A stretch of 41,542 nucleotides of DNA, taken from positions 1 to 41,542 of IMG/VR virus record IMGVR_UViG_3300044846_002890; one strand, written 5' to 3'. Position 1 is the first letter of the stretch; every line of letters begins with the position of its first letter. The translations under genes were made by a program, and so were the position numbers. The notes beneath the pieces were generated by a model. It saw nothing but the letters and a program-made list of their open reading frames with translations, was not told where the DNA came from and did no database searches. Shown piece by piece: positions 11,280-40,804 of the stretch. This DNA comes from a virus.

Positions 11280-11281
11280 AG

Positions 11282-11992: not shown

Positions 11993-12798
11993 TTTATTTA
12001 AATTTAAAGGGCGGATTAGGTAATATGATGTTCCAAATTGCCACAACCAAGTCAATTTCATTGTCAAAAAAAACAGATTATTCTTTTCCAAATTTAAATA
12101 ATCACATAAATTATTTGAGTATTGAAAATACATACAATCCAAATGTTAACTATTGTTCTGAATATTTGGAATTACCCTTTTTAAAAGGTGCTAAGACGAC
12201 TCAATCTTTTTTACCTGTTAAAACAATTAATTATCCGTTTCATTTTGAAGATATTACATTACCAATATCAGACATTATAATTGATGGGTTTTTTCAATCA
12301 GAGAAATATTTTAAAAATCATGAAAAAGAAATTTTAGAATTATTTTTACCTGATGAAAAAATTAAAACTTATATTGAAACAAAATATTCTAATTTATTCT
12401 CTGAAAGAACAACATCAATTCATGTAAGGCGAGGAGATTATATTAGAAACAGTAGTTATCACTTTGTTCAAGATATAAATTACTTTAATGATGCAATCAG
12501 TATTGTTGATTCCAACACGGACAAATATCTTATTTTCAGTGATGATATTGAATGGTGTAAAGAAAATTTTAAGGGAGACAAGTTTATTTTTATTGAAAAT
12601 GAAAAAGATTATATTGAGATTTATCTAATGTCAATGTGTTCAAATAATATTACATCGAACTCAAGTTTTTCTTGGTGGGGAGCGTGGTTAAACCAAAATC
12701 AAAACAAAGTGGTAATTGGACCTAAGAATTGGTTTGGTCCGTCTTTACAGTCGTTAAAAACTGACGACATTATACCTAATAATTGGATTAAAATATAA
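11989..12798 (+). CDS. GT11 alpha-1,2-fucosyltransferase
   Basis: A 269-residue enzyme that by family transfers L-fucose from GDP-fucose, usually to galactose in alpha-1,2 linkage. The GT11 signatures are clear: GGLGNMMFQIA (8-18), HVRRGDY (145-151, the GDP-fucose-binding region) and SNSSFSWWGAWL (223-234). The length matches bacterial GT11 enzymes. It is followed 2 nt downstream by a divergent gene with a related HIRL motif, and a GDP-mannose 4,6-dehydratase gene 3.8 kb downstream could supply the donor precursor. Acceptor unknown. This is the best-supported functional call in the glycan cassette apart from the dehydratase. Confidence 0.92.
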   Translation: MIYLNLKGGLGNMMFQIATTKSISLSKKTDYSFPNLNNHINYLSIENTYNPNVNYCSEYLELPFLKGAKTTQSFLPVKTINYPFHFEDITLPISDIIIDGFFQSEKYFKNHEKEILELFLPDEKIKTYIETKYSNLFSERTTSIHVRRGDYIRNSSYHFVQDINYFNDAISIVDSNTDKYLIFSDDIEWCKENFKGDKFIFIENEKDYIEIYLMSMCSNNITSNSSFSWWGAWLNQNQNKVVIGPKNWFGPSLQSLKTDDIIPNNWIKI

Positions 12799-12800
12799 CT

Positions 12801-13547
12801 ATGGAAACACGATTAAATGTTATCGGAGGAGGAATTTTTTCAAAATTTATGAGATTAATTCAGTACACCCAACAAGAAAATTTAATTGTTGAAAACACTT
12901 ATTTAGATGTTATTGATACAATGTTCAACATTAATGAGAATATGATTGATTATTGTATACAACAAGAACAAATGCCAAATGTAGAAATCACAGAGTGCTC
13001 AAATTATGAAACTTTTGATAAAAAAAATAGAATTGAGTCTTCTATCAGGATTATAACATTTAAATCAATGTGTGAAAAAATAATTTTCACAAAAAAATTA
13101 AATGATTTAATTGAATTATATACTCAAAAATTTGTTTTTGATTCCAATACTATTGGTGTTCATATCAGATTATGTGATATGAATATTATGCACGCCGAAA
13201 ATTATGGTAAATATAACTTTGAAAATTTTACAAATAAACTAGATAAAATATTAACACCTGAAAGTAAAATATTTGTCGCGTCTGACAACAATGAATCTTT
13301 AAAAAAATTGGAGTTAATTTACGGTGATAAAATTTTTTTTGTACCTAATATGATTAGGGTAGATAAAGAAGACGACAACTCATATCAATTACAAGTTGAT
13401 AATTTGTCAAACCCTGATTTTTGGATTGAATCTTTTTTAGAGATGATTTTATTATCAAAATGTTCTAAATTAATTTGTAGAACAAGTAATTTATCAAACG
13501 CGTCTTTATGTTTTTCTAAAACAATAGAAGAAGTCATAAGGTTATAA
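12801..13547 (+). CDS. Divergent fucosyltransferase-like (GT-B) protein
   Basis: A 248-residue protein. GVHIRLCDMNIMH near residue 118 resembles the HxRxGD motif of the GT11/GT23/O-fucosyltransferase group, but RxGD has become RLCD. IFVASDNNESLKKLELIYGDKIFF fits the following Rossmann strand-helix unit. LLSKCSKLICRTSNLSNAS near the C-terminus matches the S-x-F/L-S donor-site region where GT11 has SSFSWW. The order of these elements supports a relaxed fucosyltransferase fold. It lies 2 nt after the GT11 gene, so it may be a diverged paralogue. Activity is uncertain because of the altered motif. The gap after it (13548-13586) is T-rich with no clear hairpin. Confidence 0.6.
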   Translation: METRLNVIGGGIFSKFMRLIQYTQQENLIVENTYLDVIDTMFNINENMIDYCIQQEQMPNVEITECSNYETFDKKNRIESSIRIITFKSMCEKIIFTKKLNDLIELYTQKFVFDSNTIGVHIRLCDMNIMHAENYGKYNFENFTNKLDKILTPESKIFVASDNNESLKKLELIYGDKIFFVPNMIRVDKEDDNSYQLQVDNLSNPDFWIESFLEMILLSKCSKLICRTSNLSNASLCFSKTIEEVIRL

Positions 13548-13586
13548 TTCTATTTCTTTAATAATTTTTTTTTGTAAATTTTATTC

Positions 13587-13997
13587 ATGGAAAATATATA
13601 CTCAAAAGTAGACCCTAACAAATTACTCCATGTTATTGTTAGAAAGGAAGATTTAATTAAAGGTAGAATTGAAGTTGTCCCTGAAAATAATTTTATACAA
13701 TGTGCTCTTCTTAATATGGATGAAGGTAAAACATTTAAACCACACAGACATATTTGGAAAGAAAGAACAAGAAATGTTATTGCTCAGGAAAGTTGGATTG
13801 TAATTGCGGGTTCGGTTAAGTGTACGTTCTATGACATTGATGACCAAATTATTGCAGAACCTGTTCTACAACCTGGTGACGCATCATTTACTCTTGAGGG
13901 TGGTCATACATACACCATTTTAGAAAACGATACATTAGTTTATGAATACAAAACTGGCCCATATGAAGGACAATCTTTAGATAAAAAATTTATATAG
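13587..13997 (+). CDS. WbuC-like cupin-fold protein
   Basis: A 136-residue single-domain cupin. HRHIWKERTRN near residue 52 holds the first His pair. ESWIVIAGSVKCTFYDID, LQPGDASFTLEGGHTYTI and EYKTGPYEGQ follow in the order of the beta barrel. The C-terminal KTGPY resembles WbuC-type cupins of O-antigen clusters. The nucleotide-sugar 3,4-ketoisomerases (FdtA type) are another small cupin family of similar size and are an alternative. Metal binding is plausible because several His and Glu remain. It starts after a 39-bp gap and precedes the methyltransferase gene by 3 nt. A sugar-modifying or sugar-sensing role is inferred from context. Confidence 0.7.
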   Translation: MENIYSKVDPNKLLHVIVRKEDLIKGRIEVVPENNFIQCALLNMDEGKTFKPHRHIWKERTRNVIAQESWIVIAGSVKCTFYDIDDQIIAEPVLQPGDASFTLEGGHTYTILENDTLVYEYKTGPYEGQSLDKKFI

Positions 13998-14000
13998 TTT

Positions 14001-14612
14001 ATGCCAAGTTTAAATAGTGTTGAAATTAGTAAATGGTTTGCAGCGAATGGTGATAATACACACAACGTAACATACGATTTAAATGAAGATTCAGTTATAA
14101 TGGATTTTGGTGGATATGCTGGTGTTTGGGCACAACAAATGATTAATAAGTATAATCCAAATGTCTACGTATTAGAACCAGTACCAGAATTCTATAATCA
14201 AATGGTTACAAAGTTTGCCAATAATTCTAAAGTTCGACTAATGAATGTTGGTGTTGGTATTGAAAATAAAGAAGGTATGATTTTTATGTCGGGTGATGCC
14301 ACATCATCAAATATAAGTAGTAATAAATCAATTGATATAAAATTTAATACTGTTGAAACAATATTAAAAAATTGGGGGTTAAGTGAAATTGATTTAGTTC
14401 AAATAAACATTGAAGGGGACGAATATTCACTTTTAGAACACATGTTGGAAACTGGTGATATAAATAAATTTAAAAATATACAAGTACAGTTTCATTTAGG
14501 TGTTGAAAATGATATTATCAGAAGAAATAACATACGTGAAGGATTAATTAAAAATAGATTTGAAATAAATTTTGATTATCCATTTGTTTGGGAATCTTGG
14601 AAAAAAAAATAA
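14001..14612 (+). CDS. FkbM-family SAM-dependent methyltransferase
   Basis: A 203-residue class I methyltransferase. The SAM-binding motif I is IMDFGGYAGVWAQQM near residues 33-47, motif II is VYVLEPVPEFY (acidic residue that would bind the ribose), and a later strand reads DLVQINIEGDEYSLLEH, a hallmark of FkbM enzymes. FkbM methyltransferases O-methylate sugar hydroxyls in polysaccharides and glycoproteins. The size is compact but complete. Flanked by a cupin and a hexapeptide acetyltransferase, it is likely to cap or decorate the same glycan. O-methylated sugars are known in Bacteroidota protein glycans, which fits the inferred host, but the target here is unproven. Confidence 0.85.
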   Translation: MPSLNSVEISKWFAANGDNTHNVTYDLNEDSVIMDFGGYAGVWAQQMINKYNPNVYVLEPVPEFYNQMVTKFANNSKVRLMNVGVGIENKEGMIFMSGDATSSNISSNKSIDIKFNTVETILKNWGLSEIDLVQINIEGDEYSLLEHMLETGDINKFKNIQVQFHLGVENDIIRRNNIREGLIKNRFEINFDYPFVWESWKKK

Positions 14613-14615
14613 GTT

Positions 14616-15152
14616 ATGGTATTAGGAATTGATGTTATTTTAGATAGTGATATTGTAATAAAACAAAATGAATCTACATCTGTTGGAAATCATGTTGCAA
14701 TTGATAAAGGATTCTATTGTACTACTAATCTTACAATTGGAGATTACGTTCATATAGGTCCTTATGTTACAATAATTGGTGGTAAAGAAAGTGATTTCAT
14801 TTCAAAAGGTTTTAATAATATTATGGCTGGGGCTAAAATTATATGCGGCTCCGATAGGTTTGATGATAGCGGATTATTTGGCGCCATGATACCAAAAGAA
14901 TTAAAAGGAACTCAGATTATTAAACCTGTTATTATGGAAGAATTTTCAAACATTGGAACAAATTCGATAGTACTTCCTGGCTCAATACTTAGAAAAGGGG
15001 TTTTATTATCTGCAGGTAGCCTATTGATGGGAGATACAGAAGAATGGGGAGTTTATAAAGGTAACCCAGCAATTTTAGTAAAAAAAATTGACGGAGCTAA
15101 AATAATAGAAAATGCAAAAAAATTAGGATACTGTGGTTATGAACAAAGTTAA
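14616..15152 (+). CDS. Left-handed beta-helix (hexapeptide) acyltransferase
   Basis: A 178-residue protein of hexapeptide-repeat design. Repeats such as VGNHVAIDKGFYC, IGDYVHIGPYVTIIG and IGTNSIVLPGSILRKGVLL build the parallel beta helix. VYKGNPAILVKKI near residue 150 is the characteristic C-terminal turn where acetyl-CoA binds in sugar O- or N-acetyltransferases. The usual catalytic His on the loop after the third coil is not obvious; HIGPYV near residue 49 is a candidate. It probably acetylates a sugar or nucleotide sugar. It overlaps the GT10-like gene by 14 nt. PerB- or FdtC-like N-acetylation of an amino sugar is possible given the nearby aminotransferase homologue. Confidence 0.82.
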   Translation: MVLGIDVILDSDIVIKQNESTSVGNHVAIDKGFYCTTNLTIGDYVHIGPYVTIIGGKESDFISKGFNNIMAGAKIICGSDRFDDSGLFGAMIPKELKGTQIIKPVIMEEFSNIGTNSIVLPGSILRKGVLLSAGSLLMGDTEEWGVYKGNPAILVKKIDGAKIIENAKKLGYCGYEQS

Positions 15153-15936
15153 AGTTAATATGATTGGTGGAGGATTTCAGCATTCAATATCCACAAATGG
15201 TATAACCCCAAAGTATATAGAATGGGTTAAAGGACCCCGTACTGCTCCAACATCAATTTATATTGATGGTGCTATCTTATGTGAAGTAAATCCAACAACA
15301 AAAAACTACGCATGGTTATGTGAATCCAAAACAATAATTAATGAAATATATAAATGGTGTGCAAATAATATAGAAATTTTAAAATCTAGATATATCTCAG
15401 TTTTTACTCACGATGTTGAGTTAGCATCGACATCAGATATTTTTGTTTTAACCCAATGTAGTGGAAAGTCATTTTTAACACACGGAGAGATTTATCCAAA
15501 AAATAAATTAATTTCAATGATTGCCTCAAATAAACGTATGTGTATAGAACATATATATCGACAAAAAGTGATTAAAAAATTTTCAAGTAAATGTGACCAT
15601 TTTGGTGTGGGTTTTAACGAAATTAAAAACAAAGAAGATGGGTTAAAAGATTATTGTTTTTCTTTTGCTTTGGAAAATGCAACATATCCAAATATGTTTA
15701 CAGAAAAAATAACTGATTGTTTTATGACAGGAACAATTCCAATTTATTATGGTATTAAAAATATAAGTGATTATTTTAATCCCGATGGTATAATAACATT
15801 AACAGACGATTTTAAAATTGAAGATTTAAGTTTTGATTTATATGTTTCAAAATTAGATGCGGTCAGAGAAAACCTTAGATTATCTATGGATTTATTATTA
15901 GCTGAGGACTACATTTGTAAAAACTTTTTAATGTAA
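15139..15936 (+). CDS. GT10 alpha-1,3/1,4-fucosyltransferase-like protein
   Basis: I place the start at ATG 15139, giving 265 residues. A GTG two codons upstream (15133) is also possible; both lie inside the preceding gene. The C-terminal half carries the GT10 signature: a SNKRMCIEHIYRQKVIKKF segment with Lys/Arg-rich helix, then CDHFGVG, then FALENATYPNMFTEKITDCF followed by TGTIPIYYG. This matches the family pattern F-x-F-E-N-S-x-x-x-D-Y-x-T-E-K and the P-V-Y-x-G donor loop. GT10 enzymes use GDP-fucose to make alpha-1,3 or alpha-1,4 linkages. The N-terminal acceptor domain is short and divergent. Together with the GT11 gene it implies a multiply fucosylated glycan, or a related GDP-6-deoxyhexose donor. 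Confidence 0.78.
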   Translation: MNKVKVNMIGGGFQHSISTNGITPKYIEWVKGPRTAPTSIYIDGAILCEVNPTTKNYAWLCESKTIINEIYKWCANNIEILKSRYISVFTHDVELASTSDIFVLTQCSGKSFLTHGEIYPKNKLISMIASNKRMCIEHIYRQKVIKKFSSKCDHFGVGFNEIKNKEDGLKDYCFSFALENATYPNMFTEKITDCFMTGTIPIYYGIKNISDYFNPDGIITLTDDFKIEDLSFDLYVSKLDAVRENLRLSMDLLLAEDYICKNFLM

Positions 15937-15977
15937 TATACATTAATATAAACTAAAAGAAATGAAAAAATTAAGTT

Positions 15978-16580
15978 ATGAATTTTAATGTGGTGACGGA
16001 ATTTGAAGAAAAAATTGCCAAGTTTTTTGGTTCTCCTTATGCAATTGCCGTGGATAGTTGTACCCATGGAATTGAATTATGTTTAAGGTATACCAAAGAA
16101 ACAAAAATAAATGTACCGAAAAGAACTTACTTATCAGTTCCATTTTTGGCCGAAAAACTTGGGATTGAGAGAGAATGGAGAGACGAAGAATGGGAAGATT
16201 ATTATACGGTAAATTATAATAATAAAAGGATTATAGATGCCGCGGTTCTTTGGAAAAAAGATAGTTACATATCAAATACATTTATGTGTGTTAGTTTCCA
16301 GTATCAAAAACATTTATCTTTAGGTCGAGGTGGTATAATTTTACTTGATAATGAAAATGACTACATTAACTTAAAGAAAATGTCATATGATGGAAGACTA
16401 CCAAACATACCTTGGAGAGACCAAGACATTGATTGTGTTGGATACCATTATTACATGACACCTGAAACCGCACAAATGGGATTAAATAAATTAGAAAACG
16501 CCATTAATACAAATCCAAGAAAATGGGTAGTAACTGATTGGCCCGACTTAACACAAATGAAAATTTTTAAAAAAATATGA
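15978..16580 (+). CDS. Short DegT/DnrJ/EryC1-type aminotransferase homologue
   Basis: A 200-residue protein, against about 370-390 for full-length DegT sugar aminotransferases. It keeps the PLP-binding core: SCTHGIELCLRY near residue 27 (phosphate-binding loop), IIDAAV with Asp87 (pyridine nitrogen contact) and SFQYQKHLSLGRGGIILL with Lys111 as the Schiff-base lysine. The C-terminal small domain is missing, and the reading frame ends cleanly, overlapping the GMD gene by 4 nt. Joined to GMD, a full enzyme could make GDP-perosamine (PerA reaction), but this short form may work only as a dimer with shared parts, do something else, or be inactive. The 41-bp gap upstream holds no clear hairpin. 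Confidence 0.75.
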   Translation: MNFNVVTEFEEKIAKFFGSPYAIAVDSCTHGIELCLRYTKETKINVPKRTYLSVPFLAEKLGIEREWRDEEWEDYYTVNYNNKRIIDAAVLWKKDSYISNTFMCVSFQYQKHLSLGRGGIILLDNENDYINLKKMSYDGRLPNIPWRDQDIDCVGYHYYMTPETAQMGLNKLENAINTNPRKWVVTDWPDLTQMKIFKKI

Positions 16581-17557
16581 AAAAAGCGTTTATAACAGGA
16601 ATTAACGGACAAGATGGTTCTTATTTAGCGGAATACCTACTAAGCTTAGGTTATGAAGTACATGGTATTGTAAGAAGAAATTCAGTATCAGAAAATCAAC
16701 AAAATAGATTCTCAGACGAGATTAGAGAAAAATTAAAAATAAATTATGGTGATTTATTAGACCAAGGTAGTTTAGAAAGACTATTAAGCGAAATACAACC
16801 TGATGAAATTTATAATCTTGCAGCACAAAGTCATGTTCGAGTTAGTTATGAAATACCACAATTTACAGTTCAAACAAACGCGTTAGGGGTTCTTAATATT
16901 TTAGAAGCATATAGAAGAACTTGCCCAACCGCAAAATTCTACCAAGCAAGTTCATCAGAAATGTTTGGTAATTCTGTAGATGAAGATGGATTCCAAAGAG
17001 AAACAACAAGAATGACTCCTGTTAGTCCCTATGGTTGTTCTAAAGTATTTGCGTACAATATAGTTAAAAACTATAGAAACGCATATAATTTACACGCTTG
17101 TAATGGTATTCTATTTAATCATGAATCACCAAGAAGAGGTTCAAACTTTGTAACCAACAAAGTGGTTAAAACCGCTGTTAGAATTAAGTTAGGTCTTGAA
17201 AATAAACTTGAATTAGGTAATATGGATTCTTACAGAGATTGGGGTCATTCTAAAGATTATGTTCGAGCAATGCATTTAATTATTAATAATGAATCTCCTG
17301 ATGATTTTGTTGTATCAACAATGCAAACTCATTCAGTTAGAGAAATGGTTGAATATGTTTTTGGTAAACTTGAATTAGATTATAACCAATATGTTAGCCA
17401 AAATTTAAAATTTTTAAGACCTGAAGAATTAAAATATTTAAAGGGTGATTCAACAAAAATTAGAACAAAATTAGATTGGACCCCAGAATATACATTTGAA
17501 ACCATGTTGGATGAAATGATAGAATATTGGATAAACTATTACACAAATAATAAATAA
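16577..17557 (+). CDS. gmd: GDP-mannose 4,6-dehydratase
   Basis: Converts GDP-D-mannose to GDP-4-keto-6-deoxy-D-mannose, the branch point to GDP-L-fucose, GDP-D-rhamnose and GDP-perosamine. The 326 residues read as a full extended SDR enzyme: TGINGQDGSYLAEYL (7-21, NADP binding), NLAAQSHVRVSYE (80-92), SSSEMFG (125-131), the catalytic Y-x-x-x-K as SPYGCSKVFAY (Tyr152, Lys156), NHESPRRG (181-188) and SYRDWGHSKDYVRAM (substrate-binding tail). No GDP-fucose synthase (Fcl/GMER) gene is present in the window, so the next step must come from the host or another part of the phage genome. It overlaps the DegT-like gene by 4 nt. Confidence 0.96.
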   Translation: MKKAFITGINGQDGSYLAEYLLSLGYEVHGIVRRNSVSENQQNRFSDEIREKLKINYGDLLDQGSLERLLSEIQPDEIYNLAAQSHVRVSYEIPQFTVQTNALGVLNILEAYRRTCPTAKFYQASSSEMFGNSVDEDGFQRETTRMTPVSPYGCSKVFAYNIVKNYRNAYNLHACNGILFNHESPRRGSNFVTNKVVKTAVRIKLGLENKLELGNMDSYRDWGHSKDYVRAMHLIINNESPDDFVVSTMQTHSVREMVEYVFGKLELDYNQYVSQNLKFLRPEELKYLKGDSTKIRTKLDWTPEYTFETMLDEMIEYWINYYTNNK

Positions 17558-17940
17558 TGATACAAATTCCTGTTAGCGTTGGAGAATTAATTGATAAACT
17601 ATCAATTTTACATATAAAGAAAAATAAAATATCTAATACTGAAAAATTAGAATTTATCAGTAAAGAATTTGAGTTACTATATAATATGTCATCATATTAT
17701 TTGAACAATGAAAACATTTCAAAACTGTATCATCAATTAGTTGAGGTTAATTTAAAATTATGGGAAATTGAAGATGAATTAAGAGTTATTGAATCAACCA
17801 AAGATTTTAATACTACTTTTATTGAATTAGCAAGACAAGTATACCACACTAATGATGAGAGGTTTTCATTAAAAAATAAAATTAATGAGTTAACTAATTC
17901 TGAAGTTAGAGAACAAAAAGATTACGTAAATTATCGTTAA
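17557..17940 (+). CDS. DUF6165-like protein
   Basis: A 127-residue protein with the start IPVSVGELIDKLSILHIKK, which I recall as the signature of the DUF6165 family often found in LPS and capsule clusters. The rest is helical (EFELLYNMSSYYLNN, LWEIEDELRVIES), probably a coiled-coil bundle. There is no catalytic motif. Its ATG overlaps the stop of gmd (TAATG). Context supports an accessory role in glycan synthesis, perhaps scaffolding or regulating the enzymes, but the biochemical function of the family is not known to me. It closes the main glycan block; PhoH follows 18 nt later. Confidence 0.7.
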   Translation: MIQIPVSVGELIDKLSILHIKKNKISNTEKLEFISKEFELLYNMSSYYLNNENISKLYHQLVEVNLKLWEIEDELRVIESTKDFNTTFIELARQVYHTNDERFSLKNKINELTNSEVREQKDYVNYR

Positions 17941-20630: not shown

Positions 20631-21437
20631 ATGAACGAAAAATTATCACTATCAATCATACTACCTATCAAATCATCAAAATCTAGAGATTTTAATGACT
20701 ATTTTGAAAAGGCAATAACCTCAATTAAAACACAAACTGTTGATATTGAAGAGTTAATAATTGTACACACATCTGAAGAATCATTAGTTAACTATTTAAA
20801 TGACTATGATTTTGGAGATATAAATGTTATAAAATTATTATGGGATAAAGAACCTAGTTATGCAGAACAAGTTAATTTTGGGGTTAAAAACGCAAAAGGT
20901 ATTTGGGTTTCATTATTTGAATTTGATGACGAATACTCGTCAATTTGGTTTAAAAATGTTAAAAAATACATTGACTCATATCCTGAAACTCAAGTTTTTT
21001 TACCAGTGGTTGTTGAAACGGACGAAAAAGGTTTATTTGCTGGGTTTACCAATGAAGCAACCTTTGCGGCAAACTTTAGTCAAGAAATGGGTTTCCTAAC
21101 TAACGAGACTTTACAAGACTATCAAAATTTCCAAACAGCGGGTGCGGTTATTAAAAAACAAGTTATTGAAGACTTTGGAGGTTTTAAACCTTCAATTAAG
21201 CTAACGTTTGTTTATGAGTTTTTATTAAGATTAACCTACAATTCTGTATCAATTATGACAATACCTAAACTTGGGTATAAACACACTAATATGAGGGAAG
21301 GTTCAATTTTTTGGAATTATAAGTTTGGTGAAAACAAAATGTTAGAAGACGAAGTTAAATTTTGGGTTCAAACTGCAAAAAAAGAATTTTTCTTTATTGA
21401 CGATAGGGTCATAAAATATCAATCAGAAAATGGATAA
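20631..21437 (+). CDS. GT-A family 2-like glycosyltransferase
   Basis: A 268-residue protein. SLSIILPIKSSKSRDFNDYF at the N-terminus, then SIKTQTVDIEELIIVHT, fit the GT2 nucleotide-binding half. SLFEFDDEYSSIWF near residue 100 carries the acidic metal site (EFDDE instead of a canonical DxD). The C-terminal part has AGAVIKKQVIEDFGGFKPSIK, the usual GT2 pattern in which an acceptor-binding loop follows a G/A-x-x-x-x-K segment. It is the last recognisable glycan gene and abuts the sigma factor gene (TAATG junction, 1-nt overlap), so the final glycosyltransferase and the sigma factor are translationally coupled. Confidence 0.8.
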   Translation: MNEKLSLSIILPIKSSKSRDFNDYFEKAITSIKTQTVDIEELIIVHTSEESLVNYLNDYDFGDINVIKLLWDKEPSYAEQVNFGVKNAKGIWVSLFEFDDEYSSIWFKNVKKYIDSYPETQVFLPVVVETDEKGLFAGFTNEATFAANFSQEMGFLTNETLQDYQNFQTAGAVIKKQVIEDFGGFKPSIKLTFVYEFLLRLTYNSVSIMTIPKLGYKHTNMREGSIFWNYKFGENKMLEDEVKFWVQTAKKEFFFIDDRVIKYQSENG

Positions 21438-22186
21438 TGCAAGAAACTCTATCTGCAACAACAGAAGATGTTTCATCTAAAAAAAGGGGTAGGAAAACGG
21501 TAAATATAAATTATTTTGATGTTAGAGAAGAGACCGCAGTAAGAAATTTTTTATTAGCAGAAACTTCAGAAGAGAAGAACAAAATATATAACGAATTCTT
21601 AAGAGGTCCTTTAGATAAGATGATATCATCTATTATTAGACGATATAAGTTATATCGTAAAGATATGGATTTTACTGAAATCCATTGTGATACTCATTCA
21701 TTCTTAATGACCAAGGTTGACAAATTTAAACCTTCAAAGGAAAAAAAAGCATATTCTTATTTTGGAACCATTTGTAAAAATTACTTAATGGGTCAAATAA
21801 TAAAAGACCAAAAAGAAACTAATAGAAAAGTTTCTTATGAGGATATGTCAGAAAGTATTGAGGAAAGACCTGATATGATGTATCGTATTGATGACGACAT
21901 AGTTGACACTAGTATTATAATTACAGAATATCTAAAAGAATTAAAGGATTTTATTGAGGGGGAGAATCTAAATGATAATGAAAGAAAATTAGGTTACGCA
22001 CTTATAGATTTATTTGATAATTACGAATCAATCTTCTCAGGTGCGGATAATAATAAATTTAATAAAAATGTAATTCTTTTGTCTTTAAGAGAAATGACAA
22101 ATTTAAGTACAAAAGAAATACGCAGTTCAATGAAAAGATTTAAAAAATTATACATTTTTATTCAATCTAAAATGAAAACTGATTAA
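21437..22186 (+). CDS. gp55-like late RNA polymerase sigma factor
   Basis: A 249-residue sigma-70-family-like protein. After a basic N-terminus (SSKKRGRKTVNINYF), residues about 50-115 form a region 2-like helical unit: FLRGPLDKMISSIIRRYKL, HCDTHSFLMTKVDKFKP and KAYSYFGTICKNYLMGQII, the last being the region 2.3/2.4-type F/Y-x-x-x-x-x-x-x-x-I pattern. A C-terminal helical segment (LREMTNLSTKEIRSSMKRFKKL) resembles a region 4-type HTH. The size is near T4 gp55, which directs host RNA polymerase to late promoters. Its target is plausibly the TATTTAT-type elements found before many transcription units here. Identification is by pattern only. Confidence 0.75.
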   Translation: MQETLSATTEDVSSKKRGRKTVNINYFDVREETAVRNFLLAETSEEKNKIYNEFLRGPLDKMISSIIRRYKLYRKDMDFTEIHCDTHSFLMTKVDKFKPSKEKKAYSYFGTICKNYLMGQIIKDQKETNRKVSYEDMSESIEERPDMMYRIDDDIVDTSIIITEYLKELKDFIEGENLNDNERKLGYALIDLFDNYESIFSGADNNKFNKNVILLSLREMTNLSTKEIRSSMKRFKKLYIFIQSKMKTD

Positions 22187-30183: not shown

Positions 30184-30945
30184 TTATAATTTATTTCCGC
30201 AAGACGGACAAAACTTATATTTTGATTTTGTCTTGGTACCACATTCAGTACAGTAGTGTTTAATATCTTCCGTTGTAGCATTTTTAATACCCAATGGTAA
30301 TATCTTGAAAATAATTTGACGAGACGCATTATATTCAAAATTTTGATACGAATTAGTAAATTCTTGTTTTGATTTTTCACCTTTTTCAACTCTTCCAGTT
30401 TCAATGGTATTACTAACGGATGAAGTGTTAGAATAGTACGAAGCCATTGGAGCCGAACTTGATGTTGTAAATGTGATATCACCATAGTACGGTGAACCTG
30501 TATTGATATCACCATAGTACGGTGAACCTGTATTGATACCTGACCAACCAGTACCCCAATTACCACCCGAAAGATGAGGGTATTGAGTATATGTTTGTTC
30601 ATTATAGAACTCAATCCTTACGTCCCCATTTAAATCGATTGCCGTCCTGTTTGCCGACGTATCTTTTACTTCGTAGGTACTGAACTCAAACTTGTTGTTT
30701 GTGTCAAGGAAACGTTCTAAAAACACTCTCTGACCTGGTCGAATAACGACACCACCTGTGGAGATGTATTCACCATTTAGTTTGATTTTACAGAGAACTG
30801 ATTTTTGGGTTGGGTTATGAATTTCAAATTCAAAATTATCCTTATCTCCAAGGAAAACGGTGTTACCGTTGTAGACTTTAAGACGCGACTTTTTCTTTGT
30901 GATGTGAGCAGTCGGTTTGCTCACGATGTTTGTTGTGTAATACAT
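30184..30945 (-). CDS. Zinc-ribbon protein with N-terminal beta domain
   Basis: A 253-residue protein. Residues about 20-125 form a beta-rich domain (LKVYNGNTVFLGDKDNFEFE, SGGVVIRPGQRVFLERFL-like strands), a pattern seen in virus and giant-virus surface or internal proteins. Two copies of NTGSPYYGDI follow at about residues 138-157, then a low-complexity linker. The C-terminus YCTECGTKTKSKYKFCPSCG is a CxxC-x11-CxxC zinc ribbon. A zinc ribbon on a beta domain is consistent with a capsid- or nucleic-acid-associated protein. It has a long leader (30946-31085) with a TATTTATT element, and shares the terminator at 30155. Function unknown; late expression likely. Confidence 0.7.
   Translation of the reverse strand: MYYTTNIVSKPTAHITKKKSRLKVYNGNTVFLGDKDNFEFEIHNPTQKSVLCKIKLNGEYISTGGVVIRPGQRVFLERFLDTNNKFEFSTYEVKDTSANRTAIDLNGDVRIEFYNEQTYTQYPHLSGGNWGTGWSGINTGSPYYGDINTGSPYYGDITFTTSSSAPMASYYSNTSSVSNTIETGRVEKGEKSKQEFTNSYQNFEYNASRQIIFKILPLGIKNATTEDIKHYCTECGTKTKSKYKFCPSCGNKL
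30475..30534 (-). repeat. Perfect 30-bp tandem duplication
   Basis: Two exact 30-bp copies (30475-30504 and 30505-30534) encode NTGSPYYGDI twice in the zinc-ribbon protein. The identity at every base, including wobble positions, indicates a recent duplication that kept the frame. Confidence 0.95.
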
Positions 30946-31136: not shown

Positions 31137-32948
31137 TTATCTCAATTCTCTTAAGTCGAATGTTCTAACACCATCTACTGTAATTCTGCCGTAAAATCTA
31201 TTATTCACCATTTTCTTAGCGTATCTAGTCATGATACCTTTGATTGGTGTAAAGTTGAACGGATTGTACATTGTAGGTGTTAATTGTAGAGGTACATACG
31301 GTGCGTAAATGTAACCTGTGTCTAACAATGATGTTCCTTTGTGTCCCATTAACACTTGGTTTGGTGGGAAGTAAGGGTCACGGTAAACTTGGTAACGACC
31401 TGCTAATGTACCAACTCTTTCAATACCCATGTTGTATTGGTCTTGCTCAGGAGCAGCATTTGATACGTGGAAATATTCCAAGTCATCAAAGATAGCACTG
31501 ATTTCAGAAGAAACAACAATCCAGTTTGCTCCACCTCTTAATGTAGATTTGTGGATTTGTGCTGAAATTTGGTTGATTGCTGTGATTAAAGTTTGGTTCC
31601 AATCTTTTTGAGTGTAAGGAACTGCACTTGAACCCAGACGCTTCCAACCATTGTAGTCCCATCTTAAGTTCCAAGCAGCACCTTTACGTAAATCTCTTAA
31701 GATTTCACGGTCGATTTCAGCCGCAACTTGCTCAGACAATAAAGCTGTTAATTCAGCTTCAGCATCGATGTTGTGGAACGCTGCAACGTCTTGTGCCATT
31801 TCTGGAGACCATTGAGCTCTTAATTTTCTTTCAGTTACAGAAACTGTTACTGACATAAGGTCAAACGATACCTCACCGATTCTATCTTCAAACTCTAAGT
31901 TTTTGTAGATTCTATATGTACCTGTAAACGCTTGAGAATTACTTGCGATTGTTGACGAGAATGTTGAACCTGTGTAACCGTCCATAGAACCGCCACAAGT
32001 AATACATACTGGTACTTGTAAGTCAACTTCTAAGTAGATTTTACCTTCAGCATCACATAAGTTGTCATATTGACCACCATCAGTTCTACTATTAGGGAAT
32101 ACCAACGTAGCGTTGTTATTACCGTACTCAACTATACCTTTACCATATCTCTGAGTTACAACTCTGAATAAGTAAGGGTTGTTAGTGTTAGCAGATGTTG
32201 TTGCATTACCAGCAGCACCTTTAATTGTTAAGTCAGATAAGAAAGCTTCATTATCCATTGGTTGACCATCTGGTCCGATTAATTTACCTGCTCCAGCAGA
32301 TGCAAAACCTGACAAAACTATTAATACTTTTCTGTAATCAGATTCAGTATAAGCAGAAGGAACTAACAAACCTGCAGAATCCCAAGCCACAGTTGTTACG
32401 TTTGCTGTGATTGCAGAATATTGTCCTTTTGAATAGTCAAATAAACCTGGTGGGTCTAATGCTGGTTCGTTACCTTCGTAGAATCTATCATAAAGGTCTT
32501 TAGTTGTGTTGTAGTCGTAACCACTGTTTGGTGTTTGGTTATCAGCTGCGTTTGGTGAACCATACGGTGCGTAGTGAATACCTGTATTCGCTAAGTTAGT
32601 TGGGTCAGTGTACGCTTGAATGTTAGGTACAAAGTAGAATAATTTACCGATTGGTAAGTTCATTGCTTGTACTGAAACGATGTCGTTTGCTAATAATTTA
32701 GAGAATACACGTCTAACGATTGGGAAAACCACTGTTTCAAATGCACCTGTATCAGATGTAGATGATGCTTCATTAATTAAATATGATGCTTGGTTTTCGT
32801 ATAATTGTGCTACGTTTTCTCTCATGTGACCTTTAAGACCTTCTAAAAAGCCTAATTTGTCCCATTTGTTGATTGTGTCTTCTTTGATAACTTTAAGGTG
32901 TTTTAACCCGATATTACCAACAAGACCTGATTCTAATAATGCTCCCAT
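31137..32948 (-). CDS. 23: Major capsid protein, gp23-like
   Basis: A 603-residue T4-type capsid protein, longer than T4 gp23 (521). Near residue 34 FLEGLKGHMRENVAQLYENQ matches the gp23 N-terminal region. LINEASSTSDTGAF places a likely prohead-protease cut after Glu60 (T4 cuts after Glu65). VVFPIVRRVFSKLLANDIVS, VSVTERKLRAQWSPEMAQDV, FHNIDAEAELTALLSEQVAA and AEIDREILRDLRKGA are the core gp23 segments. Near the C-terminus, TLAGRYQVYRDPYFP, GTSLLDTGYIYAPYVPL and GIMTRYAKKMVNNRF complete the match. The middle insertion (with VPVCITCGGSMDGYTG) may be a capsid-surface domain. It is followed by a strong terminator and lies 43 nt after the core protein gene. Confidence 0.93.
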   Translation of the reverse strand: MGALLESGLVGNIGLKHLKVIKEDTINKWDKLGFLEGLKGHMRENVAQLYENQASYLINEASSTSDTGAFETVVFPIVRRVFSKLLANDIVSVQAMNLPIGKLFYFVPNIQAYTDPTNLANTGIHYAPYGSPNAADNQTPNSGYDYNTTKDLYDRFYEGNEPALDPPGLFDYSKGQYSAITANVTTVAWDSAGLLVPSAYTESDYRKVLIVLSGFASAGAGKLIGPDGQPMDNEAFLSDLTIKGAAGNATTSANTNNPYLFRVVTQRYGKGIVEYGNNNATLVFPNSRTDGGQYDNLCDAEGKIYLEVDLQVPVCITCGGSMDGYTGSTFSSTIASNSQAFTGTYRIYKNLEFEDRIGEVSFDLMSVTVSVTERKLRAQWSPEMAQDVAAFHNIDAEAELTALLSEQVAAEIDREILRDLRKGAAWNLRWDYNGWKRLGSSAVPYTQKDWNQTLITAINQISAQIHKSTLRGGANWIVVSSEISAIFDDLEYFHVSNAAPEQDQYNMGIERVGTLAGRYQVYRDPYFPPNQVLMGHKGTSLLDTGYIYAPYVPLQLTPTMYNPFNFTPIKGIMTRYAKKMVNNRFYGRITVDGVRTFDLRELR

Positions 32949-34952: not shown

Positions 34953-35675
34953 TTATTTTCCCAAATAATCGGTTAATTTTTTCATTAAGTCAACTCCTTT
35001 GGATTGAAATTCTGAATTTTCTGGTGAATTATGTCTTTTTTCTTCTTCTAAGTTTTCTTCATACTTACTTCTATCGTCAGGATTAGTAAACAAATATGCT
35101 CCTGGAGTTGATGGGGATGATACCAAGTCAAAACAAATTAATTCAAAATCATCTTGTACTTCGTTTCTTTCACCAACTTTTTTTAAGGAACCTACACCTC
35201 TTGAGGAAACTCCCATTGTAACACCTTGTCTCATTAAGTTAGCTGCTTGGTCTCCTTTAGTTGATACAATACCTCTTTCGTGAAATCCTGGTGATGTTAA
35301 TAATTTAAGTTTACCCATTAGGATATTTTTATCCCACCATATGTCTGTAATAATGTGTGATACCCTATCTAAGTCAATTAAAGACGACTCAGGGTGATTA
35401 AGTTCTGAGGTTGATAACCCCTTGGCAATCGCCTTCTTATAGTTTTCAGCTTCTCTTTTTAATATCCTTTCAGGATAAAATCTTCCATTTCTATTTGGTG
35501 TGTCGTATTTTTGTAACACAGCATAAAACTCAAATGGATTCCTATAATCTAAATTTGCTGCTTCCTTTAACATTTCTGAATTACGTATGTCTTTTGGGGA
35601 AACCCAACCAGCATCCATCTCTATCAATATACCATGACCGACTTCACTTGCTTCTAAAATTCTTAATTGTTTCAT
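34953..35675 (-). CDS. 21: Prohead protease, gp21-like (S80 family)
   Basis: A 240-residue serine protease that, in T4-like phages, processes the core and capsid proteins before DNA packaging. VLQKYDTPNRNGRFYPERIL (about 53-72) is the conserved N-terminal segment. ELNHPESSLIDLDRVSHIIT holds the catalytic His94, and MGVSSRGVGSL holds the catalytic Ser (157 or 158). FELICFDLVSSPSTPGAYL is the conserved C-terminal part of the fold. Length is close to T4 gp21 (212). It is preceded by a TATTTATC element at 35689 and lies between the 143-residue gene and the DUF4494-like gene. Its expected (I/L)xE specificity matches sites noted in the capsid and other proteins here. Confidence 0.93.
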   Translation of the reverse strand: MKQLRILEASEVGHGILIEMDAGWVSPKDIRNSEMLKEAANLDYRNPFEFYAVLQKYDTPNRNGRFYPERILKREAENYKKAIAKGLSTSELNHPESSLIDLDRVSHIITDIWWDKNILMGKLKLLTSPGFHERGIVSTKGDQAANLMRQGVTMGVSSRGVGSLKKVGERNEVQDDFELICFDLVSSPSTPGAYLFTNPDDRSKYEENLEEEKRHNSPENSEFQSKGVDLMKKLTDYLGK

Positions 35676-35712: not shown

Positions 35713-36144
35713 TTATTTACTTTTTGATATTGAAAAATCAAAGTATTTGTTTTCAATAACATTATCTCTTATAATATTTCTCACAATTTTTTTAATTGAT
35801 TCTTTTAATTCGGGCGATTTAAAATCAAATTCTTGGTTAGTATATAAATTAACTTCTAAGTTAAAAAATGATTTTTTCCCGTGTGATATTCCACTTGTTC
35901 TTAGGTCTAAATCAACAATACTGTTTTCTTTAAACAAACTTGAGTCTATTGAATTAAAGACAGAATGTTTTATTTCTCGGTTTAGATTACACACGACCCG
36001 ATTCCAATTGTCGTGTTCAAATTTGGGGGAAACCCATGATTGAATGTTTATGTATAATGATTTTAAATTTTTAGAATCTACTGTACCATATACCGATTTT
36101 ATCGGACTGAATAGATTTAACTTTACACTTTTTCCTTTTTTCAT
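35713..36144 (-). CDS. Hypothetical protein in the gp67/gp68 position
   Basis: A 143-residue basic protein starting MKKGKSVKLNLFSPIKSVYG. It reads as a mix of strands and helices (SLYINIQSWVSPKF, WNRVVCNLNREIKHSVF, FFNLEVNLYTNQEFDF) and ends with a helix (IKKIVRNIIRDNVIENKYF). No enzyme motif. In T4 the small prohead proteins gp67 and gp68 lie between the portal and protease genes, and this gene and the 232-residue gene occupy that place, so an analogous prohead role is inferred from position only. The neighbouring bS21 gene is on the opposite strand; the divergent gap (36145-36246) is T-rich and holds no terminator. Confidence 0.6.
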   Translation of the reverse strand: MKKGKSVKLNLFSPIKSVYGTVDSKNLKSLYINIQSWVSPKFEHDNWNRVVCNLNREIKHSVFNSIDSSLFKENSIVDLDLRTSGISHGKKSFFNLEVNLYTNQEFDFKSPELKESIKKIVRNIIRDNVIENKYFDFSISKSK

Positions 36145-36246
36145 TAATTTTCATTGATGTCAATGTTTATTTGTTTTTTTTTAAAAATAACACAAATAAC
36201 TTCCATTGTCAAAAATTTTTTAATAAATTGCGATATTTCTAATAAT
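36145..36246 (+). promoter_or_regulatory. AT-rich leader of the bS21 gene
   Basis: A 102-bp divergent gap before the plus-strand bS21 gene. A TTG at 36208-36210 and AT-rich candidate -7 boxes (TAAATTG, TATTTCTA) are present, but spacing does not fit the TAnnTTTG promoter well. There is no Shine-Dalgarno sequence before ATG 36247. A promoter must exist for this isolated gene, but I cannot pinpoint it. Confidence 0.3.
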
Positions 36247-36435
36247 ATGCTAATAGTACAAGTAAAAAAAGACGGAATAGAAAAAGCCTTAAAAACTTTA
36301 AAATCTAAAGTTATTAAGACTAAACAAAATCAAATTCTATTTGAAAAAAAAGAATTTGTTAAAAAATCTGTGGTAAGACGAGCTCAGATATTGAAAGCGT
36401 CGTATGTTCAAAAAGTAAAAAATTCTTTAAATTGA
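36247..36435 (+). CDS. rpsU: Phage-encoded ribosomal protein bS21
   Basis: A 62-residue protein; I start at ATG 36247 because the in-frame region upstream is AT-rich and unlike bS21. MLIVQVKKDGIEKALKTLK matches the bS21 N-terminal strand and first helix, and VKKSVVRRAQILKASYVQK matches the second half, especially the Bacteroidota form with KPSVxKRAQxxKAxYVQ. The length is normal for bS21. bS21 is a small-subunit protein near the 16S 3' end that affects initiation and, in Bacteroidota, occlusion of the anti-Shine-Dalgarno sequence. It is on the plus strand alone among minus-strand head genes and overlaps the convergent 232-residue gene by 9 nt. Probably redirects or supports translation during infection. 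Confidence 0.9.
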   Translation: MLIVQVKKDGIEKALKTLKSKVIKTKQNQILFEKKEFVKKSVVRRAQILKASYVQKVKNSLN

Positions 36436-37125
36436 TTCTTCCAAGTTCTTTAACTTAAGAAAATTCAATTGGTCAAACTTTTCAGTTTTTAACCTATCTA
36501 TGGTTTCAGACAATTTTGTCTTTAATTCAAACTCCTCTTCTTTCTCCAAAATAACATTAAGTTTGTTGATTGCGCTTTCACGAATAGTTTCAAACTTGTC
36601 TTCAAGAGATTTTGAATCTTCAGATATTAATTGAAGAAATTCTTTTTTAGATGACTCATCAAGATTATCAACATATTTGTTTAAAGTCTGATTCGCAATA
36701 CTAACCATTGATTTTAATGGAATATTGATAGATTCTTTAACAACACTATTTGTTGAGGTTAACACACTTGTAATATTTTTTTTAGAATTTACTCTCTCTA
36801 ACAAATTTAACTTATTTGTATAAACAAGAGCGTCAATATCAGAATATTTGTTCGTAACATTTTCTGATAGAGTTTTTGGTAATTTAATACTCGGCAGTAA
36901 TTGTTGAATTAAACTAATACCTTCTTCTAAAAAGTCTTTAGCATCAGATTCGTTTAGTCCTTGAGGTGTACTCAGTTGTTCGTATAAAGAATACAATTTA
37001 GACATAGTTTTGTTATTCAAAACATTATGTTTAAATTCTTTTAACGATTTCTTGAATTCCTTTTCATCTTTGTAGGATTCAATTAGATTGTTTTCAATTA
37101 TGGATTTGATTTTTCCGAAAGTCAT
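36427..37125 (-). CDS. Helical protein in the gp67/gp68 position
   Basis: A 232-residue protein, almost entirely helical and charged (KEFKKSLKEFKHNVLNNKTM, AINKLNVILEKEEEFELKTK). FLEEGISLIQQLLPSIKL is the most hydrophobic stretch, but no transmembrane helix is clear. NNLIES near residue 12 contains a possible (I/L)xE protease site. It follows the portal gene by 24 nt, so by position it is analogous to T4 prohead proteins gp67 or gp68, a scaffold-like role. There is no sequence evidence beyond composition. The 3' end overlaps the bS21 gene by 9 nt. A TATTTATA element lies in the gap before its start. Confidence 0.6.
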   Translation of the reverse strand: MTFGKIKSIIENNLIESYKDEKEFKKSLKEFKHNVLNNKTMSKLYSLYEQLSTPQGLNESDAKDFLEEGISLIQQLLPSIKLPKTLSENVTNKYSDIDALVYTNKLNLLERVNSKKNITSVLTSTNSVVKESINIPLKSMVSIANQTLNKYVDNLDESSKKEFLQLISEDSKSLEDKFETIRESAINKLNVILEKEEEFELKTKLSETIDRLKTEKFDQLNFLKLKNLEESI

Positions 37126-37149: not shown

Positions 37150-39003
37150 TTAGGAGTTTAGTAACTTATCCAATTCTTTTGAAATTTCTCCTAAAGATTG
37201 TTGCCCTTGACCTAAATCTAAAAATGTTGACCCCTCTAATAAGTTACTTTCAATCAATAAATTCATGTTTTTCATTCTTGATTCTGGAGTAACTGCAGTT
37301 TCTCCACCTTCAGGTGCCCCGCCTTCAGCTGGTGGTGGTGCAACTTCTTCTCCACCTCCCGCAGGCGGTGGTGCGGTTTCAAATCCACCTCCACCTCCAA
37401 ATGATTCTTCACCACCTGTAGTTGTTGATGCTGTTGCGGTACCTCCTGTGGTACTACCATAAAGTTTATCTATATTATCAAATAAACCTGTCTTAGTAAT
37501 AACTGTAGGAGTAGCTTTAAGTTCTTCACCAACAGCTCTTTCAATTCTTTGTTGTTGTAAATCTAATCTAATTTCTTCGTCAGACCAATTGAAGATGTGT
37601 TTTTTAGCCCAAGTAGAAGATGTAGGTTGAATACCGTTTCCTGGGTCAGCGACTAAATCTTTATATAATAAAACTTTTTCTTTCCAAACATCAATTTTTA
37701 ATAAATCCGCTTGTGTAGATGGGTTAGATAGACCTAATGTAAAGTTTTGTAATTCGTCTTCAAATCCTAATAAAAATAAATGCACAATCGCAATTTTATT
37801 TAATTCGGCAATCATACTTTTTTGAATTCTGTTGATTGTACGAGCAAAACGAATATCTTGTAATGATAAGTTTTTACCATCACCAACAACTTCTTCAAAT
37901 CCTAAAAACGCTTTAGGTACACGAAGTGCTGTTAATAATTTCTTTTGAATATATTCAATGTCGGCAATCTCTGATAAGTTAGTCGCACCAGGTAATGTTG
38001 TAATTGGGTCTGGTGCCGCAGGGTCACGAACAGGAATAAAGTAATCTTGGTCAACCGCCATTTGGTTGAATCTCATATCCACATTTCCTGTTTTGGCGTC
38101 CACAATTTGTTCTCTTTTAAACTTATTGGCAACACGGTTTACGTATGCTTCAACGTCATCATCATTCATGTTTCCAACGAATACTTTAAACATTCTTCTT
38201 TCAGGTGCACGTGATGTACGATAGATTAACATTGCATCTTCTGATAACAATAATTGTTTCCAAATACGTCTTGCTTTTTCCAACATAGAAGTACCATAAG
38301 GAAGTTTTCGGTCATCACCCAATAATCTAAAGTGAGCTATTTCCCATGATTGAAATTCCATGTTTCTATTTTTCCAAGTAAAATGAAGAGCCTTTTTATT
38401 CTCATCTTTTTCTTGTGTAATATCAACAGTAATTTTAGCACTAACTCCAACCTCATGTCTTTCAATTTCAATTGTCGGTAATTGTTGACAACCAACAATA
38501 CCTTTTTCAGGGTCTAGTTTAAGGTAAACAAAGTTATCACCATACTTACAAGTGTTTCTTGTCCACATTGGTAAGTTGGTGTTAATATCTAAATTGTTGT
38601 TAAATAAATCAGCTAATACTGATTTAATACGTTTTGATTCAGAATAAATTTGAAGGATAAAACCATCTTCGTTTGTTGTTGTAGATTCTTCAGAATAAAT
38701 GTCCAACGCCGCTGAAATCTCAGGAGTATATTCCATTGATTCGTAATCATACTGAGCGGATAATCTTGATGGTTCATAATAAATCGCTTGAGAATATAGG
38801 TTGTTTTCAACCTTAGCCCATTGGTTTGTTAAATAAAATGTTTGTTGCGCTTGGAGTTTTTCTCTTTCATAATCATCACGATTTGGAGTACGCAAAAGTT
38901 CTTTCTTATCAAACTTAAAAGTTGGATAATCTTGTTTTAATAATGAATTAGGTCCAAATGTTTTTGACAGTCTCTGCCATACCGTAAGATTATTATCGCT
39001 CAT
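37150..39003 (-). CDS. 20: Portal protein, gp20-like
   Basis: A 617-residue T4-type portal, somewhat longer than T4 gp20 (524). The N-terminus (TVWQRLSKTFGPNSLLKQDY) leads to YTPEISAALDIYSEESTTTN and DINTNLPMWTRNTCKYGDNF, the conserved dodecamer wing. GTSMLEKARRIWKQLLLSED, YRTSRAPERRMFKVFVGNM, TNLSEIADIEYIQKKLL and RVPKAFLGFEEVVGDG are typical gp20 segments; the stem and crown follow. Residues about 520-580 form a Gly/Pro/Glu insertion (GGGGGFETAPPPAGGGEEV and more) just before the C-terminus, absent from T4. The gene lies directly after the terminase, with a TATTTATA element in the gap. Confidence 0.92.
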   Translation of the reverse strand: MSDNNLTVWQRLSKTFGPNSLLKQDYPTFKFDKKELLRTPNRDDYEREKLQAQQTFYLTNQWAKVENNLYSQAIYYEPSRLSAQYDYESMEYTPEISAALDIYSEESTTTNEDGFILQIYSESKRIKSVLADLFNNNLDINTNLPMWTRNTCKYGDNFVYLKLDPEKGIVGCQQLPTIEIERHEVGVSAKITVDITQEKDENKKALHFTWKNRNMEFQSWEIAHFRLLGDDRKLPYGTSMLEKARRIWKQLLLSEDAMLIYRTSRAPERRMFKVFVGNMNDDDVEAYVNRVANKFKREQIVDAKTGNVDMRFNQMAVDQDYFIPVRDPAAPDPITTLPGATNLSEIADIEYIQKKLLTALRVPKAFLGFEEVVGDGKNLSLQDIRFARTINRIQKSMIAELNKIAIVHLFLLGFEDELQNFTLGLSNPSTQADLLKIDVWKEKVLLYKDLVADPGNGIQPTSSTWAKKHIFNWSDEEIRLDLQQQRIERAVGEELKATPTVITKTGLFDNIDKLYGSTTGGTATASTTTGGEESFGGGGGFETAPPPAGGGEEVAPPPAEGGAPEGGETAVTPESRMKNMNLLIESNLLEGSTFLDLGQGQQSLGEISKELDKLLNS

Positions 39004-39040: not shown

Positions 39041-40804
39041 TTAACGACCACCAAATAACCAACCGTATTTTTGGTAGTCGGCCTTAGTTGCGGCCCCATT
39101 ATTATTCAAATTATTGTCTCTTCCCATTTGCGGCACCATTGGATTAAAAAAGTCGGAAGAGTTTTTATTTTCATTCACAGTTGTTGCCCATGAATTTATC
39201 ATCGCCTTTGTATGATTCGTAACTTTTTCTAAAGATTGGAATGATTTTTCCGCAACATATAATGCCATAGAAACCCCCATAATACAATCATCGTGATGTC
39301 CTTTTTGGTGGTCAGGTCTTCCATTTATATAAATAAATGTGTTCATTTCATTGTATAATCTATTTGAATATACTTTAAACCCATGCCTTACACCCTCTTC
39401 AAACGCTGCAATAATTTGAACTCTTTTTGAATTAAAATTAATCCCTGGTATTTTATCATTTATTTTTGGGTCCCATTTCCACTTATTACTTGTATCAACA
39501 TTATCAACATATAATCCAGCTTGATAATTTAACTCTTGTAACTTTCTTGCAGTAGAAATACCCATACCACCTGTGATGTCAATAACACAATAAGCATTAT
39601 ACATTGTTCCCCATTTATATGCAATTTCTGCTAATACATCTGGTGGGATTTTTGCAACGTATTCTAACACTTGTTCTCTTTCATCAAAATCAATGATTTG
39701 AATACACGAGAAGTCTTCAGAATCACCTCTTGATACATCCACACCCATTACATATTTGTGACCGTTTACGGGTTCTTTAAATATCCATAATGAACCACCC
39801 ATAAGTTTAGCTTGGGGCTCACGTAAAGTATTTTTGGCAATACCTTGCATCAATTCTGATTCAAATACATTATCACCCGAACCTAAGAAGTTACATTCCA
39901 ATTCCTGAGCAACTTTTCTTCGGTCAAACTTTAACTTCTTAACCATACTTTCAAACCATGATGAACATGGTTTATATCCCTGACTAATGTAATCAGTTAC
40001 GATTGAATGGTCTCTGTCATATGGATTTTCCATTGACAAGTTAATAATATCCTTATCAGTATATTCTTCTCTATTTAATAAAAAATGAACCAAATCGTTT
40101 GTTTTAACCATATACAAATCTTTTGTATATCTTGGGTCACGATACCAAAACATCTCAGATATTTTGAAATCATTCATATTCCTTAATGATTGGTCGTAAA
40201 TCTCATAGTAAATTTGGTCATATCCGTTTGGAGTGGATACTACAATTACTTTACCCCCTGTTGATAGGGATGCCATACACGCAGACCAAAAATCTGAGTC
40301 CGCTTCAATAAACGCAGCCTCGTCAAATACAAGAATTGTTGGAGTATAACCCCTCAAAGCATCTTTTGATGTTGCAACAGCCTTAACTTCACAATTATTA
40401 TTAAGTTTAAAGTGTCTTTGGGAGTTTTTTTCTTTTGAGAATGAAATACCAACCCACGCGGGCCATTGTTCAGTAAACCCTCTAACCTTGTTAGCCATCT
40501 CCATTGATGTGTCTAACTTGTTGGCAATAATAAGGATTTTTTCAGGTTTGTTCTTTTGTGCAAATGCCAATTTTTTTGATATCCAAGCGGCGGTTACTGT
40601 TGATACACCTGCCTGACGATACTTTAATGCAATGTTCTCATTGTATTTGTCGTAATCTTCAATTAAACTAACTTGGTCTGGGAATAAATCTAATGGGACG
40701 TATTTTGATACGGTATTATCGTATGTCTGTAAATAAGTTCGAAGTGCGTAAGGAGTATTCCTCATGCACTTCGTTAATTCTATAATAAGTTGTTCTCTAT
40801 TCAC
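39041..40804 (-). CDS. 17: Terminase large subunit, gp17-like
   Basis: A 587-residue DNA packaging motor and nuclease. The ATPase has a deviant Walker A (KYRQAGVST, about 61-69), with Lys before the loop instead of the usual GKT/S, as in several terminases. Walker B is ILVFDEAAF (157-165) and the coupling motif is VVSTPNG (near 188). The RNase H-like nuclease holds GVDVSRGDSEDFSCIQI (first metal Asp), YCVIDITGGMGIST (second) and HHDDCIMGVSMAL (third Asp). Length is close to T4 gp17 (610). It is followed by the portal gene with no tail sheath or tube genes between, unlike T4 (17-18-19-20). It lies 6 nt after the partial gene at 40811. Confidence 0.94.
   Translation of the reverse strand: MNREQLIIELTKCMRNTPYALRTYLQTYDNTVSKYVPLDLFPDQVSLIEDYDKYNENIALKYRQAGVSTVTAAWISKKLAFAQKNKPEKILIIANKLDTSMEMANKVRGFTEQWPAWVGISFSKEKNSQRHFKLNNNCEVKAVATSKDALRGYTPTILVFDEAAFIEADSDFWSACMASLSTGGKVIVVSTPNGYDQIYYEIYDQSLRNMNDFKISEMFWYRDPRYTKDLYMVKTNDLVHFLLNREEYTDKDIINLSMENPYDRDHSIVTDYISQGYKPCSSWFESMVKKLKFDRRKVAQELECNFLGSGDNVFESELMQGIAKNTLREPQAKLMGGSLWIFKEPVNGHKYVMGVDVSRGDSEDFSCIQIIDFDEREQVLEYVAKIPPDVLAEIAYKWGTMYNAYCVIDITGGMGISTARKLQELNYQAGLYVDNVDTSNKWKWDPKINDKIPGINFNSKRVQIIAAFEEGVRHGFKVYSNRLYNEMNTFIYINGRPDHQKGHHDDCIMGVSMALYVAEKSFQSLEKVTNHTKAMINSWATTVNENKNSSDFFNPMVPQMGRDNNLNNNGAATKADYQKYGWLFGGR

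Follow-up and report, generated by a model that had tools for sequence, protein, structure and literature searches.

A divergent bS21 gene preceded by a conserved promoter-like box in the head-gene region of a freshwater Bacteroidota phage

The window that we analysed is the whole of a 41.5-kb virus record (41,542 nucleotides). Its head-gene region contains a small gene for the ribosomal protein bS21 (36247..36435, plus strand) whose translation, MLIVQVKKDGIEKALKTLKSKVIKTKQNQILFEKKEFVKKSVVRRAQILKASYVQKVKNSLN, is 62 amino acids long. The gene stands alone on the plus strand, as the sequence-only reading of this DNA had said, and the genes around it all lie on the minus strand. They are a divergently oriented conserved hypothetical gene of 143 codons (35713..36144), a convergent conserved hypothetical gene of 232 codons (36427..37125) whose tail overlaps the 3' tail of bS21 by 9 nt, and the genes for a T4-like portal protein gp20 (37150..39003; PF07230, E 4.2e-75), the large subunit of the terminase, TerL (39041..40804; PF03237, phrog_2), a gp21-like prohead protease (34953..35675; PF03420, phrog_207) and a gp23-like major capsid protein (31137..32948; PF07068, E 1.3e-71). 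TerL had no match of at least 60% identity among annotated phages, the best among the matches listed being 25-28%, and a search of the window for Rfam families and tRNAs gave no match. Elsewhere, a 253-residue protein whose C-terminus carries a zinc ribbon is encoded between the tail genes and the capsid gene (30184-30945), and a large minus-strand protein with a repeat tract, possibly a tail protein or adhesin, reaches the contig end (2-2797). A run of genes at 5588-17940 resembles, by reading, sugar or surface-polysaccharide functions and includes apparent glycosyltransferases, nucleotide-sugar enzymes and an FkbM-like methyltransferase.

bS21 is the most common of the ribosomal proteins encoded by phages. 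The protein described here belongs to the bS21 family: it matched the Pfam profile PF01165 (Ribosomal_S21) with an E value of 7.1e-7 and a score of 29.3 bits, above its cut-off of 27 bits, over profile positions 2-54 of 55, which is the full domain. It scored 16.9 bits against TIGR00030, the NCBIfam equivalog for bacterial bS21, whose cut-off is 28.95 bits, and because this score is under the cut-off for the cellular equivalog we regard the phage protein as a divergent form. Its nearest solved relative is the bS21 of Flavobacterium johnsoniae (7jil_z; E 3.8e-9, residues 1-61 aligned), in which Tyr54 corresponds to Tyr53 of the phage protein. It thus has the aromatic residue at F. johnsoniae position 54 that defines the Bacteroidia type. 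The original description of a 62-residue bS21 of Bacteroidota type is borne out by the Pfam score and by this relative, and the alignment with a Flavobacteriia-type bS21 that had been proposed as a check runs from end to end. That the gene is real and not a chance open reading frame follows from its 481 relatives in IMG/VR, from its tail overlap of 9 nt and from a median dN/dS of 0.11 (dS about 1) among 38 distinct bS21 genes of the bS21-anchored set described below. A search of annotated phages for relatives of the protein found none.

The bS21-anchored set was made up of the best 80 of the 481 relatives retrieved with the bS21 query. In every locus with room for them (74/74), both hypothetical neighbours were present and lay on the strand opposite to bS21. 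As a remedy for a set chosen by bS21 itself, 80 loci were fetched by means of the prohead protease. bS21 was found in 69 of these protease-anchored loci, always on the opposite strand and between the two hypothetical genes; in nine the contig stops short of the bS21 position, and in two (L203 and L208) bS21 is naturally absent and the genes for the 143-aa and 232-aa proteins are adjacent. Since these two loci keep both neighbours, the neighbours do not require bS21 and bS21 is dispensable in some backgrounds; L203 and L208 are natural controls for the role of the gene. Neither neighbouring protein matched a family at E<=0.001. The 143-aa protein is at least 78% identical across the relatives, and its predicted structure (pLDDT 65) had as its sole match an uncharacterised myovirus protein (A0A8S5L9A5, E 4e-6); a ribosomal S6-like fold was considered for it and set aside, the matches being not significant (E about 0.1). 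The predicted structure of the 232-aa protein is mostly helical and of low confidence (pLDDT 55). The 143-aa protein is a candidate for the bS21_CN of Chen et al., although that protein was reported absent from outgroups (PMC9723584), whereas the 143-aa and 232-aa genes both persist in L203 and L208.

Two parts of the phage protein are strongly conserved. At position 54 (F. johnsoniae numbering) an aromatic residue was present in all 50 distinct full-length phage bS21 proteins of the protease-anchored set, as Tyr in 41, His in eight and Phe in one. Residues 14-28, which belong to the N-terminal helix, hardly vary among phages and differ from those of hosts: in F. johnsoniae numbering, most phages have T, L, S, V, I, K, Q and N at positions 18, 19, 21, 23, 24, 27, 28 and 29, where 31 host sequences have K/R, F, K/R, F, E/D, G, V/T and L/V. 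The possibility that this invariance was an artefact of fetching relatives by their peptide patterns was rejected, as the protease-anchored loci largely upheld it, with one divergent group (of the T[FL]KYKVNKT type). A constraint on the nucleic acid at codons 14-28 was likewise rejected: synonymous entropy in the bS21-anchored set is 0.96 bits there and 0.68 elsewhere. Because synonymous sites in these codons vary freely, the constraint acts on the protein. In a tree with 32 host sequences, the phage proteins are set apart on a single long branch with support of 100/99, a value drawn from only 63 alignment columns.

The region between bS21 and its divergent partner contains two conserved elements. 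A promoter-like box, GATATTTCTA (36232..36241, plus strand), ends 5 nt before the bS21 ATG; among the 48 distinct upstream regions of the protease-anchored loci, 47 had its core, ATATTTN, which ended 5-8 nt before the ATG. The form of the box in relatives is GATATTTGTA, and in one of them (L191) it is exactly TATTTATA. The other element, the TTGTCAAAAA block (36206..36215, no strand assigned; TTTTTGACAA in reverse), has GTCAAA or ATCAAA in all 48 regions and is probably the -33/-35 element of the 143-aa gene, with TATTTTTA (36182..36189, minus strand) as its possible -7/-10 element, to judge from the letters; TATATTTTAAC occupies the corresponding place in the bS21-less relatives. The ATATTTN box is lost in L203 and L208, which keep a TTTTGAC element ahead of the 143-aa gene. 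Because the bS21-less relatives keep the one element and lose the other, we assign the GTCAAA block to the promoter of the 143-aa gene and the ATATTTN box to bS21. A host-type -33 TTG box for bS21 was also considered and rejected as the main reading: GTCAAAA is constant whereas the TTG can also read TAG or ATG, and TTTTGAC is retained ahead of the 143-aa gene in the relatives without bS21.

The bS21 box resembles a promoter motif, TATTTATA, that is enriched before other phage genes. Of 174 genes, 81 had TATTTAT upstream, whereas the count on the reverse strand was 22 (Fisher p 3e-12). This p value is optimistic, since two of the three sources are related phages, which makes the counts non-independent. 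With start codons called mechanically, 19 of 84 TATTTAT motifs ended no more than 5 nt ahead of the start codon, and near-leaderless genes may consequently be common. The TATTTATA motif was strand-biased upstream of many genes in the window and in L115-L130, and its distances to the ATG fell into clusters of 3-5 and 10-18 nt; it is probably a phage promoter, with a class of leaderless genes. A possible late sigma factor of the gp55 type (21437..22186, plus strand) is a candidate reader of the motif, although its match to phrog_234 is weak (E 3.7e-4) and that to TIGR02937 (E 0.0016) is below the cut-off of that model. At Bacteroidota promoters and at T4 late promoters, transcription starts a few nucleotides after the box. 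If it does so here, the bS21 mRNA would have a leader of 0-4 nt. bS21 probably has, on this reading of the sequence, its own phage promoter at the start codon and an mRNA almost without a leader.

The translation signals of the phage are in keeping with the earlier statement that its genes largely lack Shine-Dalgarno (SD) sequences: predicted anti-SD pairing reached -7 kcal/mol in none of 44 genes in the window, compared with 6.9% of random window positions, and in none of 80 phage bS21 leaders. In 31 host rpsU genes, which served as a positive control, nine were at -7 kcal/mol or stronger and seven at -13 kcal/mol or stronger. In many host Bacteroidota, rpsU has a leader with a very strong SD and is autoregulated, whereas the phage gene has no SD and is probably leaderless. 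Two freshwater Bacteroidetes MAGs (L082 and L083) have a host rpsU that lacks an SD and contains a KKSVVRRAQILKA segment identical to that of the phage; they are possibly near the host lineage of the phage.

These findings bear on the proposal that the phage bS21 could replace the host copy and tune initiation on phage mRNAs. It is in Bacteroidota that bS21 is known to control access to the anti-SD. In F. johnsoniae, bS21 governs that access, and a very strong SD is the means by which rpsU is autoregulated; when bS21 or its C-terminus is missing, ribosomes initiate faster on the strong-SD rpsU message and worse on SD-less mRNA, and most Bacteroidia mRNAs are SD-less (McNutt et al. 2023, PMC9976891). 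The Bacteroidota-type protein, its aromatic residue at the Tyr54 position and the SD-less phage genes all fit the proposal. One step of it is weak: because phage and host messages are both SD-less, sequestration of the anti-SD cannot by itself tell them apart, and we found nothing in the start regions that sets phage apart from host. Any selectivity for phage mRNAs must then, as far as these sequences tell, have another source, such as leader structure or the N-terminal helix that is fixed in the phages.

The explanation that we favour is that bS21 is transcribed from its own phage-type promoter near the ATG, with a leader of no more than a few nucleotides, and that it would probably be made together with the head proteins, which would place it late in infection in the window phage; in lake samples bS21 was transcribed with head genes, a late co-expression (PMC9723584). 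The phage protein would then most likely take the place of host bS21 in 30S subunits late in infection, where the Tyr54 contact would hold the 3' tail of 16S rRNA sequestered, and SD-less initiation, which all the phage genes here need, would stay efficient during heavy late synthesis, as the F. johnsoniae work suggests (PMC9976891). The phage protein could also cut the supply of host bS21: ribosomes filled with bS21 should translate a strong-SD rpsU poorly, and host rpsU might in that way be shut off and the exchange become self-reinforcing. This autoregulatory step may not apply, since a clear SD was present in only 9 of the 31 sampled Bacteroidota rpsU genes. Taken jointly, from phage promoter and near-leaderless message to sustained SD-less initiation and possible rpsU shut-off, we give this account an even chance of being correct. 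A stronger form of it we consider unlikely: that a leaderless bS21 expressed from a phage promoter escapes the SD-based autoregulation of the host, fills bS21-free ribosomes and silences rpsU, bringing about a one-way switch of the ribosomes to the phage form, with its mRNA-side helix fixed across the group. The leaderless, SD-less prediction does make a concrete question of whether the phage copy escapes, and then shuts down, the feedback on host bS21.

The helix is also the centre of the published idea of a specialised ribosome, in which the N-terminal helix of the phage bS21 shifts mRNA choice towards phage messages. Its position over the mRNA path (Chen et al., PMC9723584), and the near-fixation of T, L, S, V, I, K, Q and N at the level of the protein, speak for such a role; the fixation may, however, reflect any phage-specific contact, and start regions that are SD-less in phage and host alike offer the ribosome no distinguishing feature that we could find. 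We consider this possible but less likely than not. The opposite reading, that a host-like bS21 simply covers a shortage at times of high demand, with neither selectivity nor an effect on rpsU, accounts for the purifying selection and for the retention of the Tyr54-equivalent aromatic and other C-terminal positions, but a plain substitute should have a more host-like helix 1 and the phage sequences form a long branch of their own. This makes it somewhat doubtful in our estimation.

Functions away from the ribosome are much less probable. A small basic RNA-binding protein might act in the virion or help in building the head, and the constant position of bS21 between head genes and the virion packaging of bS21 suggested in PMC9723584 would agree with that; the conserved C-terminal bS21 positions, with the aromatic at position 54, and a location on the opposite strand behind a promoter-like box of its own argue against a role in a structural operon, and we consider it very improbable. 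Least probable of all is that bS21 is of little importance and hitch-hikes between essential genes: its natural absence from two relatives is what one would expect of a passenger, but a dN/dS of about 0.11, retention by nearly all of the relatives sampled and conservation of the box upstream are not.

Phage-encoded bS21 is known from Pelagibacter phage HTVC008M, whose protein was shown by Mizuno et al. 2019 (PMC6375957) to enter E. coli 70S ribosomes; that phage differs from ours in host lineage and its bS21 is not of the Bacteroidota type. The host bS21 of F. johnsoniae is of the same family as the phage protein and has the same anti-SD-contacting Tyr54 position, and differs from it in helix 1. 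Closest of all are the 47 Bacteroidetes phages of Chen et al. 2022 (PMC9723584), for which a Bacteroidota host was predicted and in which bS21 is encoded on the reverse strand, flanked by two hypothetical genes, in the region of TerL, portal, protease and major capsid protein, vanishing from near TerL below about 70% TerL similarity. The window phage has that same arrangement, and shares with these jumbo phages the aromatic residue at Tyr54, the divergent N-terminal helix and PhoH and dUTPase genes elsewhere; judged by the published description, we found no difference between them. It is most likely a member of this freshwater Bacteroidota-phage group, and the bS21 finding as first stated was already known and goes no further than that study, which also put forward the hypothesis, discussed in PMC9976891, that the phage bS21 replaces the host copy and favours phage mRNAs. 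What our analysis adds to the work of Chen et al. is the tests for SD sequences, the bS21-less relatives that keep both neighbours, and the conserved boxes with the prediction of a leaderless bS21 message, the last being the only fresh lead, and a modest one, as the main text of Chen et al. (PMC9723584) mentions neither promoters nor leaders.
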